NCBI GenBank assembly: GCA_949751835.1
Contig: CATKHK010000036.1
Coordinates: forward strand, 186,001 to 250,000
DNA length: 64,000 bases
Direction of reading: 5' to 3'
Source: Blepharisma japonicum
Lineage: Eukaryota; Ciliophora; Heterotrichea; Heterotrichida; Blepharismidae
The notes beneath the pieces are model-generated. The model saw nothing but the letters and a program-made list of their open reading frames with translations. It did no database searches and was not told where the DNA came from. A program made the position numbers and the translations under genes. How positions within the stretch are numbered: position 1 is the first letter of the stretch; each line of letters opens with the position of its first letter. This document shows positions 53,245-62,141 of the stretch, piece by piece.

Positions 53245-56200
53245 ATGAAACAACATGAAGAATTAGTCAGACCTCCTTCTTCAAATTTGCTATATTTTAT
53301 GTTTTCTTTGTTTTTTACCTGAATACAGCAGAGCTTTAGCATAGAAATTATTGTCATTTTTGACGCCAGGATAAAAAGGGCTGAAACTTGGAATGAGACA
53401 TCTTTTCTCGATCAAATTCAAGCTGAAAATTCAGTTGTTGAGTGGCATAGTTGCCAATGAACAGTTGCACCCAGTTGTATTGAACATTATCCAAGCTCAT
53501 TTATAGTATTAGATTTATCAGATGATATTGAAATTCAATTTTCTGTCTCTGAATTTTGTGCACGCAACCACCTAATTCATTTAGTTTTAGAAAATAACCT
53601 CAAATATAGGAATGATTGAACCTTTTCAATTGCTCCTCCATATGGAGTTCAAATAAAGACATATTTTGCTGTTTTACAGTATTTTAATTGGACTCAAGGT
53701 GTTCTAATAACTGATGATATTTCAAATGGCACTCAAAATCAATTTAGGGAATATTCAAATGATATAAAGGCTTTAATAATTGAGTCACAGACAAATATAA
53801 ATGACTTTGTAAACAGAATTATAGTTCCTATGGGCTCGACTCTGTATTATATTTCTACACGTTTTACTGATACAAAAGAGCTTCAAGAAGCATTAGTTAC
53901 AGCAAAACTCTTAACAATTGGAAATGGTATAATATTTGCACAAAAAAGTGGCTATAATTGTGAAATTGAAGGATCATTAATTATCACTGAGTTAGGCTAT
54001 GAAAATATCACTTCAGAAGTAAATTACATGAAAAAGTCAATAGAAAATGCTATTAATTTTATTTTAAATAACACAATAGGAAATACTGTCGACGAAATTT
54101 TTGCAATGTTAAAATTGAAATGAAATGAGCAAACTAGTTTTTCGTTAATAAATGTGCAAAATAAAAATAGAACAGTAGTTGGGCAAATTATTAATGGAAA
54201 TCTTGAACTTTTCGGAAATTTAACATTTATAGGGAATTCTAGTAAAGTTCCTAAATCTACAAAAAAGGTACTACAATGAAGCATCGAAGCTGGAGGAACT
54301 AATCCTGGTTCACTTTCAACGACAGTAAGCGTTATCGGAGGTAGGGGCTCAGCTATAGCGCAGAACGAAATAAATAATAACGGCTCACAACTTTTATCAA
54401 ATTTTCAACTGCAATCTTTTAATTTCGACTGTGGGGCAACATTTTATGATCAAACATTTGCGACAGCATGCTACAAAAACGACATAGACAAATTTGGTTT
54501 GGCTCATATTTCTCCACTTGGATCAGCTATGGCATATTATTCGATGCTCACTTTTAGAAAGCTGAATTTAACTTTCCCTAACATTGGCTGTACAAATGCA
54601 GACGCTTCTTTAAATAACACTAAAATTTTCCCTTGATATGCACGGGTTCAAATCTCTAGCTCCTATGCATTTTCTCTCGTCCCAATCCTTCTGAATGCAC
54701 TTGGCTGAAAGGAAATCGGAATTTTATATCAAAATGATAGCTATGGGCAATCCGGGTATTATTATATTAAGCAGAGTATTGAGAAACACGATATAAAAAT
54801 AATAAATCCTGAGAACTCAAGAGTAATTCCTGCTAATCTGAACAGGACTTCTGTTAAAGATTATAAGTACATAATGCAAAGTATTATAGATTCTGAAACG
54901 AGACTTCTTGTATATTTATTGCAATTTCCTTTATGCAATTATGTAATGGAGGAGCTATATGATTTAGGCATGAGAAAAGGAGATATTATTATTTTTACAC
55001 TAATCTCTGATTTATTACCGCTTTACAGCTACAATGACACTTTTCTTTACAAAAGGTTAGAAATAGGAACTCCGATGTTTTCTATTGTGGGTCAAAACTG
55101 GGCTGGGGATTTGGGTAAAAATATTTTAGTTAAATATATGCAAATATATAAAAGCTCTCCAAATTCATTTACGTGCTTTTATTATGATGGCCTCTATTTA
55201 ATTGCTCATGCTTTGGATTATATGATAAATAGAGGATATGATTATTATGATCCTGCTAAATTGATGGCAGCAATAAGAAACCAACAGTTTGTCGGTTGCA
55301 CTGGGAGGGTTTCTATTGAGAAAGGAAGCAATGACAGAATAATGGATACTATTGATATACAAGGAAATTGGCTATATGAAAATGGTACACTAATTGTATA
55401 TAAAATTGGAGATTTTCGACCATTTAGCTTAAAACTCATAAGTATAGAGCATCCAATTTTTTATCCAGATGGCTCTACAAATAAGCCAACTGATCTTAGA
55501 AATGCTAATCAAAAATGCCCTTTCGAAGATAGACTTATAAAAACATTTGCAAAAGGGCGGCTTCTTTTATTTGGTATTTGTTTTGCTGTAGCTTTAGTAT
55601 CAATTATAATAACAATTGCAATATGGAAAAAGTGATGGGATGTACCAATTGAGCCACTCACCCAAAGAGAAGAAATTTCTCTCCAAGATCTGATAGTTGG
55701 CTTTACAATTTGTATTGAATTCTTTCAATTTTCAGCAATGGGCCCTGATTTTGCACCTATAAGCACATTATTATCTGATCTTAGCAATTCATTTTCTCTA
55801 GATCTTGATGATGTTCTAAAAATGGAAAGTGGAGTATTTTGGATCATTGTTGATGCTGTATATGGAGGAATTGCATTATGGCTTCTTCTATGCATAGTTG
55901 TGCTAATGCGTTTGGATGAAAGATTCCCATCTTTTTCTCCATTTAGATTTCTGGACTGAGTTGCTGACTATTTAATGCCTATACTTGGCAATTTATGCTT
56001 TATTCCATTTGTATCAATATGTTTAGATATTTTTGTATGTGATCAAGCAATTGGAGACAGCTTTACAGACAGCTTTATGTCAAAAGACTGCACTTATTTT
56101 TGCTGAAAAGACGAGCATTTAGTATATGCTGTTTTATCATTTTTCGCACTTCTTGCTTACGAACCATTTGCAGTATTTTGTAGACCTCTCTGGCAAGAAT

Positions 56201-56700
56201 TGCAGCTTTTTCTTCATGTTAAAACAGTGCCTCTTTACTTAATGGTAAAATCTATATTTCAAGTTACATTAATTGTGCTTAATAAAACAGTTAAAAGAGC
56301 TACCGGCTTAGGCCATGGAATCACTTTTATCGCTTTGATGATAATTTATGTTGTTTTTATTTTCAGATTCAAGCCATATAACTACCCGAGATTTAGTTGG
56401 TGGCAGGCATTGAGTCTAGTTGGGGTGATTTGGATAGCATTCCTTTCTACAATAATTTTGAGAGCTGGCGGAGACCCAACAATATACCTTATCCTTTTAT
56501 TTGCTGGATGGGTGATTTTGGCCTTATTTGGTTTTTATGTACAGGCCAAGAGATATCCCAGCATGCTGTATAGGAAAAAAGCTGGAGATACAAGCACTTT
56601 GTTTAAGTTTGCCTTTACTTTTGGGAAAATTGCCAGAAGCTCATTAGCAAAAATAATTCCTTCAAGTGAAAGCAAAAGTAACAGGTTAGCGAACGAATAG
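53245..56700 (+). CDS. Receptor: periplasmic-binding-protein ectodomain plus polytopic membrane domain
   Basis: A single 1151-residue frame broken by about ten in-frame TGA (Trp), ending in TAG. A signal peptide-like segment (LLYFMFSLFF) leads into an extracellular region of ~740 residues. Its second half resembles the type-1 periplasmic binding/ANF receptor fold (LGWKEIGILYQNDSYGQSGY, YDGLYLIAHALDYM, RNQQFVGCTGRVSI). From ~770 there are eight hydrophobic segments, separated by signature turns FPSFSPFRFLDW, GNLCFIPFVSICLDIFVC, FCRPLWQEL and FRFKPYNYPRFSWWQ. No kinase, cyclase or ion-pore motif was seen. It looks like a ciliate chemoreceptor-type protein; ligand and signalling output are unknown. 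Confidence 0.75.
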
Positions 56701-57701: not shown

Positions 57702-60700
57702 TTAAGGATGTTTAAATTCTTCACATTCTTGTGGCTCTTTGACGCCATGATCAGCATCTGCTTTAATATCATCCCTGGCTGCAGGCTTAGGCATTCCAGT
57801 TAATTCTTCAAATGACTTGCTGGCATGCAGCTCGACATGCTCTCTACATTTTACTAAATACAATTCATAATTATCATTATATTCAGCAGCAATATAAGCA
57901 TCAAGAGGATCCATTGGTTCTGGAGTCATCAGAAGCCCATAAACACAATCCATGATGTGTCTTATAGAAACTGCTGGAGAGTAAAACTGATCCAGGATGG
58001 AATGGCAAATCCTTCCAGTTGAATTTATATTACAGTGATATATTGGTGTTACAAATCTCATTGTAGGAGGCTTAAAGGGATAATCTTGAGGGAATCTTAT
58101 ATATGCTTGAAACAGGCCGCCTTCAAATGGAGTTTGAGTTGGTCCTTCGATATATAAATTCCAGAACATGATGTCACTTTCGGTTGGCAGCACAATAATA
58201 TTTTCATGAGGGTTGGTAGAAACATTTTCCAGTTCTTTCATTATACGCTTAATGCATGACGCAGATCCTTTTCCTTCTACAACAGGAGGAGATACACTAG
58301 CCACTTTCAAGGCTTCTTCAGCACTTATTACTGATTTAGAAATCTCAACTGGGGCTGCCATAGCTGGTTGTTGATCAGAGAATTCTTTTTTTCTTAACGA
58401 TTCAAGATCTTGATCTGTATTAACAACTGCCTTCTCTACTGATTTTCTATTTCTCACTGACAACAAAGTTTCACTTTCAAATAGCTTTATCCCCTCTTGT
58501 AAATCAGTAGGTAAAAATACATACCCGCCAGATGCATATGAAATGGCTTTCAAATTTTGTGAAAGATCTCCAACAACTACACTGTCCATGACAATATTAT
58601 TTGAAATCAATAGCTTACCTACTTCTAAGTGATCATGTGCAGATGAAGTATCTTCGCCATCACTCAAGCATAAAATTCTGAGCTGAGTGTCAGGATACTG
58701 TGCTTTAAAATCTACAAGCGATTTAATTGCTTCAAAAATGGCATCCCATAGCTTAGTTCCACCTGCATGTTTAGACTGATGAGCAACTGCTGTAAAAGTT
58801 GAAATGTTTTCAGTAAAAGAGCACGCCTTATCAAGCTTATTGTTAAAAAGGATTAAAGACACAACATGATTGAGGCTATAACCCACAGTTCTATCTGCAA
58901 AAGATTCAAAAAATTGTTTGGTTGCGTCCAGTCTTGAATATTCGCCTTCAGGTCCAAATGGATATACCATAGAGCCACTTTTATCAAAGAGGACGACTAT
59001 AGTTTCATCTGGTGGCCTAGTGATTTTTTCAACTGCAGGGTCATTTTTGCTGATCCTTTCTATGATACTTGCCATGTCATCAATATCATGCTTTGCTACT
59101 TCTCTTGTCAAAACGTTCATAAGATTTACTGTATTTGGCTCTTTAGGTGATAAGCCTCGATTTACAACAACTTCTTTATTCTTGTCTAGGGTGATACAGT
59201 GCAGAAATTCAGTTGATTTGAGGAATAAAGCAGGGATGATTCTTGAGAGCTTGTATTTAGTTTTGGCAGCTTGAAGCTTTTTTCACGGGAGGTCTTGTGG
59301 AAATGAAGCCCTTAAAATGCTGGGAAATGGAGATCTATTATCAAAAGTCCCAGTCCAAAGGATGACTGATGATTTTCCATTATAAATAGCTCTTTTGACA
59401 GAATAAGTAAAATCTTTGTTAACTTTTATCTGAGATTTGTTAATTATTCCAACTCCTTGAATTTCTGCGCGTCTTAGAACTTTTTTCTTAACTGCATTTT
59501 CCTCGTAATACGCATAAGTTCCATCTATTTTTTTCAGAAGGACAGGATTTTTTATTTCGACATAAGAAATTGGACAGACTGTATCGTATTCTACAAAGGT
59601 TTCGTCTCTTGAAAATTCTTCAGATGGCTTACAGGCTAGATCGCATAATAATCCAATTATTTCTAAACAATTTTCATATAGTTTGTCCTCTAATATTGCA
59701 TCAGATAGATTTAACTCTTTTATGAGAAAGCTTAAAATGAATATAAATCCTTCTTCAAGAGCAATTGAGTCTAATAAACTCATTGGTTTTCCAATACTAA
59801 GCTCATACATAGCATGCAGCAATGGCGTATTGTTCTGGGAAGCCTGTCTCAATATCCCTAAAAATGCTTCCTTAGTCGGTATTTCACTTGTTCCTATTAT
59901 ATTTGCAAAACAGTATAAAAATGAATGAAATAGCTTGATTCCATCACTAGTCTGCTCAATTGTCCTTTTAATAATAGACTTATAAGCTCTCTCAGTGTAA
60001 TCATATTTTTCTCTCCAATATAAGATAACTTGATCACTTTTTATGTCATATGATGTTAATGTAAATGCATCATTAGTCAAGAAAATATCATTTGATTTAA
60101 ATTTGACCTCAAAAGTTGGTGATTTTGTTAAGGAAAATAATTTTTGTTTAAGTTCTTGGATAGTCGTTGTTGCAAAATCTACCTTTATAAAAAATTTTTT
60201 GGTTGGATCTGCATTTGACTGCAAAATTATGGTATCGATACCTTCATTAGGATCTTTGCCTTCGAGTGATTTTACATCAAAATTAGGAACAATAAGCACA
60301 CAAAGTTTGGAAGATTCAGGAATTATATCATTGCATTTAATAAATGGCATCTGAGACAAACTTCCAGATAGAGGGCATCCATCTTCACTATAAAATGCAC
60401 AAATTCAGTCTTCTAGGGTTTTATTGTTTGATTGTAAGACTAAATTTGATAAATCTTCTAAAGTGATGTCTAAACCTGGAATTCTTAAGCTATGAATTTC
60501 TTCAGGATTGATACTATTTAAGTAACGATATTGTATCAGGAAGGTTTCCTCAGATTTCCCAGAAGATTCTGATAATGGCACAGCAACACTTGCTATATTT
60601 TCGCTTTTAGTTTCGATCTTTGACTCTTCTGATCTATTCGTATGAGATAAGTTATTAAATTCAAGTTTAACACTAATTTCACTTTGGCCACTCTCAAGTA

Positions 60701-60896
60701 GCAATTCATAGCTCTCTTGGCTCACGATTTTAAGTCAACTATCACTTTGCTTGCATAGAAGCTCAAAGTTAATTTCTTGATGAGAAGAATATTGAGAAAT
60801 TAGCGTGAGTAATTCTTCAAGAGTGGATGGTGCTGCAATCACTAATGGAGCTTTTCCAGGTATCTCTATAAGGAAATCAATTGATTTGCGTTCCAT
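57702..60896 (-). CDS. Ubiquitin-like / U-box-like / vWA / E2 fusion protein
   Basis: 1064 residues; TGA at W54, W164 and W538 keep one frame, and all joins are free of TAA/TAG. The N-terminal ~200 residues hold two small beta-rich segments, possibly PB1/ubiquitin-like. Residues ~222-297 are ubiquitin-like (TIQELKQKLFSLT, then LTSYDIKSDQVILYW). After a helical region, ~438-499 is U-box-like (CPISYVEIKNPVLL, YAYYEENAVKKKVL). A vWA domain at ~631-822 has complete MIDAS residues: DKSGS (638-642), Thr714 in GGTKLWDA, Asp746 in LSDGED. An E2 domain at ~879-1024 has the HPN-like HCN (954-956), catalytic Cys964 in GRICHSIL, PFEGGLF and FPQDYPFKPP. It probably both carries and directs ubiquitin. The U-box call is the weakest. 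Confidence 0.85.
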
Positions 60897-61229: not shown

Positions 61230-62141
61230 ATGTCCTTAAATATATCTCAAGAATCTGTTCAATGTCTACCCCCCGACAACTTATTAAAGCCAAGATCTCA
61301 AGGCACATTTTGTGTGATTTGCAATAGCGATTACCATTTGGAGTTTGTTCCTTATGTGCTATCATGTGGCCATTCATTTTGCTCTCGGTGTATTGAAAAG
61401 TGCGATTTATATTTTTCTCAAAGAAGGATAATATCACAAAGTGAGAGTATCTGGAAATGCCCTTTGTGCAGGCAAAACACTTATGATACCCCTCCAAAAA
61501 ATTTTACTCTGATAGATTTGCTCTTTCCTAGCAATTCTTGCAAAATCCATAATTCAGAGATAATATCTTATTGCTGTAATCATGATCAAACATTATGCCC
61601 CTTTTGTTTTTATGAGCATAAAAATCATGACGTTTCTCTTTTAAATGGCCCCAAGGTTGACGAAATTTTGCAATCTAAGCAATGCCTACTTGATAAATAT
61701 AAAGTAATTACTTTAAATCAAATAGAAAACTTTCGAGCTCTACTTGGGGTTATAGATGAAATTAAAGAAACAAATAGCCATTTTAATGAAAAAATAAGAA
61801 GGATTGTAGAAGCTAAAGAGAAAATGATAAATGAAATAAACGAAAAGTCATTAGCTTGCATAAATGAGCTTAGAATTTTAGGAAAATTAATGGCAATAGA
61901 TCAATTAGAAAAGTCATTGAAAATAAACTTAGAAAACTTGAAAGCTCATAATGAAAAAATTGAATCGATGACTAAATTATTTAAAAATAAGGATGTTGTT
62001 TCTCAACTAAAATGCAAGAATATGCACATTGAAATAAATGTAAATGAGATTGCTTTTGAAAGGAGTGACTATTATGGAGCTCAAATTGGCGAGATTGATG
62101 AAATAAAATCAATTGAAAGTGGGCAATTGGTATATAAATAA
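61230..62141 (+). CDS. RING / B-box / coiled-coil (TRIM-like) E3 ligase
   Basis: 303 residues, single exon, no internal TGA. A RING finger at ~28-80: CVIC, then CGHSFCSRC, then CPLC, with a long insert before the last pair. A B-box-like zinc site at ~104-135: CKIH, then CCNHDQTLCPFCFYEHKNH, with Cys/His spacing close to a B-box type 2. A coiled coil at ~150-260 completes the RBCC order of TRIM proteins; there is no C-terminal SPRY. It lies head-to-head with the E2 fusion gene. Confidence 0.88.
   Translation: MSLNISQESVQCLPPDNLLKPRSQGTFCVICNSDYHLEFVPYVLSCGHSFCSRCIEKCDLYFSQRRIISQSESIWKCPLCRQNTYDTPPKNFTLIDLLFPSNSCKIHNSEIISYCCNHDQTLCPFCFYEHKNHDVSLLNGPKVDEILQSKQCLLDKYKVITLNQIENFRALLGVIDEIKETNSHFNEKIRRIVEAKEKMINEINEKSLACINELRILGKLMAIDQLEKSLKINLENLKAHNEKIESMTKLFKNKDVVSQLKCKNMHIEINVNEIAFERSDYYGAQIGEIDEIKSIESGQLVYK

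Follow-up and report, generated by a model that had tools for sequence, protein, structure and literature searches.

Proteins that unite the functions of a ubiquitin-conjugating enzyme (E2) and a ubiquitin ligase (E3) on one chain are, to our knowledge, few in number, and as far as we know neither BIRC6 nor UBE2O carries a vWA domain or a U-box. In the accessible part of a compendium of human E3s, BIRC6 and UBE2O are named E2/E3 hybrids (PMC13061254), and the available text on the RGLG ligases of plants describes a vWA and a RING domain on one chain (PMC12647413). Here, we analyzed a stretch of 64,000 nucleotides from the ciliate Blepharisma japonicum (contig CATKHK010000036.1, positions 186,001 to 250,000; hereafter the window), in which an open frame at 57702-60896 encodes a protein with ubiquitin-like, vWA and E2 domains. 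Comparison with its paralogues suggests that this protein belongs to a family of single-chain E2/E3 hybrids, in which it would be the U-box-less member, and we consider it likely that it acts as a targeted E2 using an E3 in trans.

When the genome (45.2 Mb in 224 contigs) was searched with the whole protein, 43 matches were returned, comprising the gene itself, 3 full-length paralogues and 39 matches to the E2 part only. The paralogues on contigs C68, C15 and C86 were 71%, 44% and 41% identical to the window protein, respectively, and queries with the middle region from two of the members recovered no locus other than these four up to an E-value of 10. In all three paralogues, a Pfam U-box was located directly after the E2 domain (38.7, 50.2 and 54.6 bits; cut-off 21.4); the FLDPI start of these U-boxes presumably resembles that of UFD2-type U-boxes. 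Among the E2, U-box and vWA matches listed for the genome (127, 50 and 36, respectively, which are lower bounds, from a search that runs exon by exon), starts on the same strand fell within 4 kb of one another at the four family loci only. The family order is three beta-grasp domains, a helical region, a divergent U-box-like module, a vWA domain, a UBE2D-like E2 and a U-box. It was suggested in an earlier note on this DNA that an E2 and an E3 module stand on one polypeptide. This holds for the family, in which three of the four members have a Pfam U-box after the E2, but is doubtful for the window protein, in which the two would be combined only if the internal box is active.

The identity of the E2 domain, as judged from sequence, is certain. 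The Pfam match to UBC at residues 884-1019 scored 131.7 bits (E 1.8e-38; cut-off 27), and Cys964 and Asn956, the catalytic Cys and the HPN-like Asn of the earlier note, aligned with the active site of UBE2D3. Cys964 was invariant across the four family members. The nearest solved sequences were the UBE2D/UbcH5 E2s (E down to 3.1e-31, ∼40% identity), from which the window E2 differs in having H-C-N for the H-P-N motif, with Cys for the middle Pro in all four members, and in being part of a 1064-residue chain. One loop of UBE2D contacts RING and U-box domains. Its equivalent is SPA in the window protein and the C68 paralogue but TVD and TAD, respectively, in the paralogues on C15 and C86, which are the two with stronger U-boxes.

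A vWA domain with all five residues of the metal-ion-dependent adhesion site (MIDAS) is likewise certain on the aligned residues, as had been claimed before. Pfam matched it at residues 633-801 (32 bits, E 1.8e-7, above cut-off), and D638, S640, S642, T714 and D746 were invariant in the four members. With regard to the copine-type vWA of RGLG ligases, the vWA models among the matches listed across the family, from which weak ones may have been filtered out, were only the general VWA and VWA_2, and Ku_N once. The structure matches of VIA-align were almost wholly confined to residues 627-821 and barely covered other parts of the protein. TFIIH p34/p44 and integrin I domains have the vWA fold in common with the window domain, at 10-19% identity among the matches listed; this likeness appears to be one of fold only, with no sign of a common role.

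The N-terminus resembles a tandem array of three beta-grasp domains, and Pfam passes only the third of them. In a Pfam scan of the translation with TGA as Trp, in which both E2 and vWA passed, the ubiquitin match at residues 230-291 reached 22.3 bits, under the cut-off of 25.4; the segment alone gave 28.0 bits, and the corresponding segment matched Pfam ubiquitin in all four members. The first two domains rest on the predicted model and Foldseek: the first had a Pfam PB1 match below cut-off in one of four members, and Pfam gave no ubiquitin-like match for the second. Local features alone were used from the full-length model, which was built from four sequences. Several further Pfam matches were discarded as chance or below cut-off (SLIDE, OTU1_UBXL, RWD, Ku_N, MTES_1575, M_Eco57I_C, PH_17, Diox-like_N and PdxJ). 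The features are collected in Table 1.

Table 1. Features of the hybrid-family gene in the window, in order along the protein
Feature	Residues	Window positions	Strand	Basis
Whole open frame		57702..60896	minus	1064 aa + TAA stop; TGA read as Trp 3 times
In-frame TGA=Trp codons	W54, W164, W538	60735-60737, 60405-60407, 59283-59285	minus
First beta-grasp (PB1/ubiquitin-like) domain	1-81	60654..60896	minus	Model, predicted local distance difference test (pLDDT) ~75 over most; polyubiquitin Foldseek matches
Second beta-grasp-like domain, tentative	118-206	60279..60545	minus	Model alone, pLDDT mostly 40-65
Third ubiquitin-like domain	218-296	60009..60245	minus	Pfam ubiquitin
Helical region without family match	316-421	59634..59951	minus	Predicted helices, low confidence
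Divergent U-box-like module	441-500	59397..59576	minus	hhalign, predicted fold, Foldseek, column shuffles
vWA domain	627-815	58452..59018	minus	Pfam, MIDAS conservation, structure comparison
UBE2D-like E2 domain	879-1026	57819..58262	minus	Pfam and UBE2D alignment
Codon of E2 active-site Cys964	964	58005..58007	minus	UBE2D3 alignment; invariant in family
Short tail where three paralogues carry U-box	1038-1064	57705..57785	minus	Protein and DNA alignment

The alignments indicate that the window copy has lost its C-terminal U-box in frame and that the remainder is constrained. Up to and including SFEELTGM-KP, its protein tracks that of the C68 paralogue; the core of the U-box is then missing, and a short tail follows that ends at the same place. 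The DNA alignment likewise shows an in-frame absence whose flanks and tail match. No Pfam U-box match was found after the window E2 up to an E-value of 10. The possibility that the U-box lies behind a tiny downstream intron was rejected, as the DNA alignment over ∼400 bases past the stop revealed no stretch coding for it.

The first alternative is that the internal module is an active E3, which would make the window protein self-sufficient. Several observations favor a U-box-like nature of this module. Its motif was kept in all four family members, and hhalign against the U-boxes of this genome gave 38-63% in the 4 protein segments holding the module versus at most 1.2% in 44 others, with 0 of 200 column shuffles as good as the module in either test. 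The predicted fold was a U-box-like beta-hairpin plus helix (pLDDT 75). Foldseek with this model gave no significant match, and 34 of the 50 entries listed bore the titles of E3 proteins (U-box, RING or SP-RING) or of their complexes. The Pfam zf-Nse (SP-RING) model matched it below cut-off in three of the four members (best E 0.017). A profile search of the PDB with the module returned two unrelated weak matches only, and one with the middle region a single weak vWA match (E 0.16). Pfam gave no U-box match anywhere in the window protein, the module included, up to an E-value of 10. The likeness to a divergent U-box fold predicted for these residues is weak but consistent, and of the U-box-like module claimed earlier it is the likeness by hhalign and predicted fold that stands, without a Pfam U-box or a significant Foldseek match. 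However, the module has neither the arginine of TYxR nor the second-loop S/D-P proline seen in the other U-boxes of this genome. With the C-terminal U-box also gone, the notion of a self-contained conjugation machine is doubtful for the window protein, and an active internal E3 appears unlikely.

It might also be argued that the window copy is a decaying duplicate of a hybrid, en route to a pseudogene and without function of its own, as it has lost a whole domain that the three paralogues keep. However, the frame of 1064 codons is intact, the active-site and MIDAS residues are retained, and its E2 and vWA domains are 81% and 80% identical to those of the nearest paralogue. The ratio of nonsynonymous to synonymous change (dN/dS) against that paralogue, on C68, was 0.14 over 1064 codons, and 0.06 and 0.08 in the vWA and E2 domains, respectively; these values are rough, as synonymous sites are near saturation (proportion of synonymous differences 0.64), and they average both lineages, so that a recent relaxation in one may be hidden in them. 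On balance, we regard a decaying duplicate as improbable, somewhat more so than an active internal E3. An artefact of assembly or gene model is very improbable as the cause of the missing U-box or of the fused frame, given that the fused order recurs at four loci, each on a contig of its own, with no intron needed, that the deletion keeps the frame and its flanks and tail match, and that the genome-wide list holds no U-box match near the window gene on its contig, C36.

The reading that we prefer is that of a hybrid family with a U-box-less member, in which ubiquitin would be passed from the ubiquitin-activating enzyme E1 to Cys964. In the full paralogues, the tethered U-box would activate the charged E2, either in cis or between two molecules, and aid transfer, and the vWA domain (by metal-dependent binding) and the ubiquitin-like domains would choose the target or partner complex. 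A single chain would thus serve as both E2 and E3, which is in principle the arrangement of BIRC6 and UBE2O. In the window copy, the E2 and its canonical SPA loop are present and its own ligase domain has been lost. With the canonical loop there and the C-terminal U-box absent, the simplest and most likely reading is the use of an E3 in trans, either a paralogue or another RING/U-box protein; reliance on the protein's own degenerate internal box is less likely. Some points weigh against this scheme. Catalysis may be altered by the H-C-N that all four members carry where H-P-N is usual, and TVD or TAD for SPA in the two paralogues with good U-boxes disfavors a simple cis mechanism between E2 and U-box there. 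Given this change in the C15 and C86 loops, the U-box of these two copies may instead act with a different E2, or its contact with the E2 may be of another kind. In addition, the full-length model was poor (mean pLDDT 46.5, mostly below 50 in the E2 part), and the constraint is read from the rough dN/dS values above. A bolder proposal, which we put forward only tentatively, is that the four proteins represent a class specific to heterotrichs. Its poly-ubiquitin-like N-terminus would be joined to a vWA domain switched by metal, to an E2 and to a U-box, and ubiquitin loading, transfer and metal-gated target binding would all take place on one molecule. Two copies would have the U-box and a changed E2 loop, one would have kept both U-box and loop, and the window copy would have the loop without the U-box, and such copies might work as pairs in trans.

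Compared with described systems, this combination of domains is real and unusual. The family shares with BIRC6 and UBE2O a UBC domain and an E3 function on one long chain; however, the E3 module of the Blepharisma paralogues is a U-box and a vWA domain precedes the E2, and no Pfam match to a BIR domain was found in the family proteins up to an E-value of 10. RGLG ligases likewise join a vWA to an E3-type domain in a single protein, whereas the family proteins carry an E2 and no RING match was found in the window protein or its three paralogues up to an E-value of 10. UFD2/UBE4, CHIP and other U-box E3s have a C-terminal U-box in common with the three paralogues, in which it is fused to an E2 and a vWA domain; the window copy has none. 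Among the papers listed in the open-licence literature on this architecture, on E2/E3 fusions and hybrids and on heterotrich E2s, no description of a vWA domain, an E2 and a U-box on one chain was found. E2/E3 hybrids and vWA-RING proteins are thus known already; it is the build of vWA, E2 and U-box that would be new here, a novelty that depends most on whether other ciliates and protists share this fusion. Scans by sequence pattern gave no confirmed relative, either in viral contigs (131 and 83 pattern matches) or in prokaryote contigs (83 and 118 matches); neither collection holds eukaryote genomes as such, so that this result says little on other ciliates. The fusion of E2 and U-box downstream of vWA and ubiquitin-like domains offers a natural test of cooperation between an E2 and a tethered E3, for which the window copy, lacking the U-box, provides a naturally occurring deletion control.

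The reading frame and its genetic code were also examined, and we conclude that the frame is real. The coordinates and the 1064-residue chain of the earlier note were correct, the strand, which it did not give, being minus, and its three TGA codons were found in frame. Reading of TGA as Trp is supported because, of the eight alignment columns in which at least one of the four members has TGA, six hold TGG in another member; TAA is the stop codon of all four genes. Repeats of three CCCTAACA units occurred 77 times forward and 91 times reverse in the genome, versus 0 and 0 for the reversed control, and one lies at the very start of the contig carrying the window gene. In the accessible part of a report on Blepharisma stoltei, both a CCCTAACA-type repeat and TGA as Trp are described (PMC9942806), which agrees with a Blepharisma-like heterotrich as the likely source of this DNA.

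With regard to the genomic surroundings, E2 domains were matched at least 127 times in the 45 Mb of the genome, and many of these matches lie in tandem clusters (contigs C21, C107, C68, C79 and C32), which represents a large E2 expansion; in such a ciliate, the family illustrates free recombination of ubiquitin modules. Contig C78 holds 8 of the 50 U-box matches listed. A transposase frame of the DDE_Tnp_1_7 (PiggyBac) type, matching the profile from end to end, is located ∼130 bases upstream of the C86 paralogue (L012, 4-1359, plus strand). In the window, a gene for a RING and B-box (TRIM-like) protein at 61230-62141 on the plus strand (RING_UBOX 27.0 and B-box 27.3 bits, both above cut-off) stands head to head with the E2 gene, with 333 bases between the start codons; that it might provide the E3 in trans for the window E2 is a guess. 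Further away, 53245-56700 on the plus strand encodes a protein of 1151 residues in which two stretches match ANF_receptor and the C-terminal part is hydrophobic; judged by eye, it is possibly a receptor similar to class C G-protein-coupled receptors.
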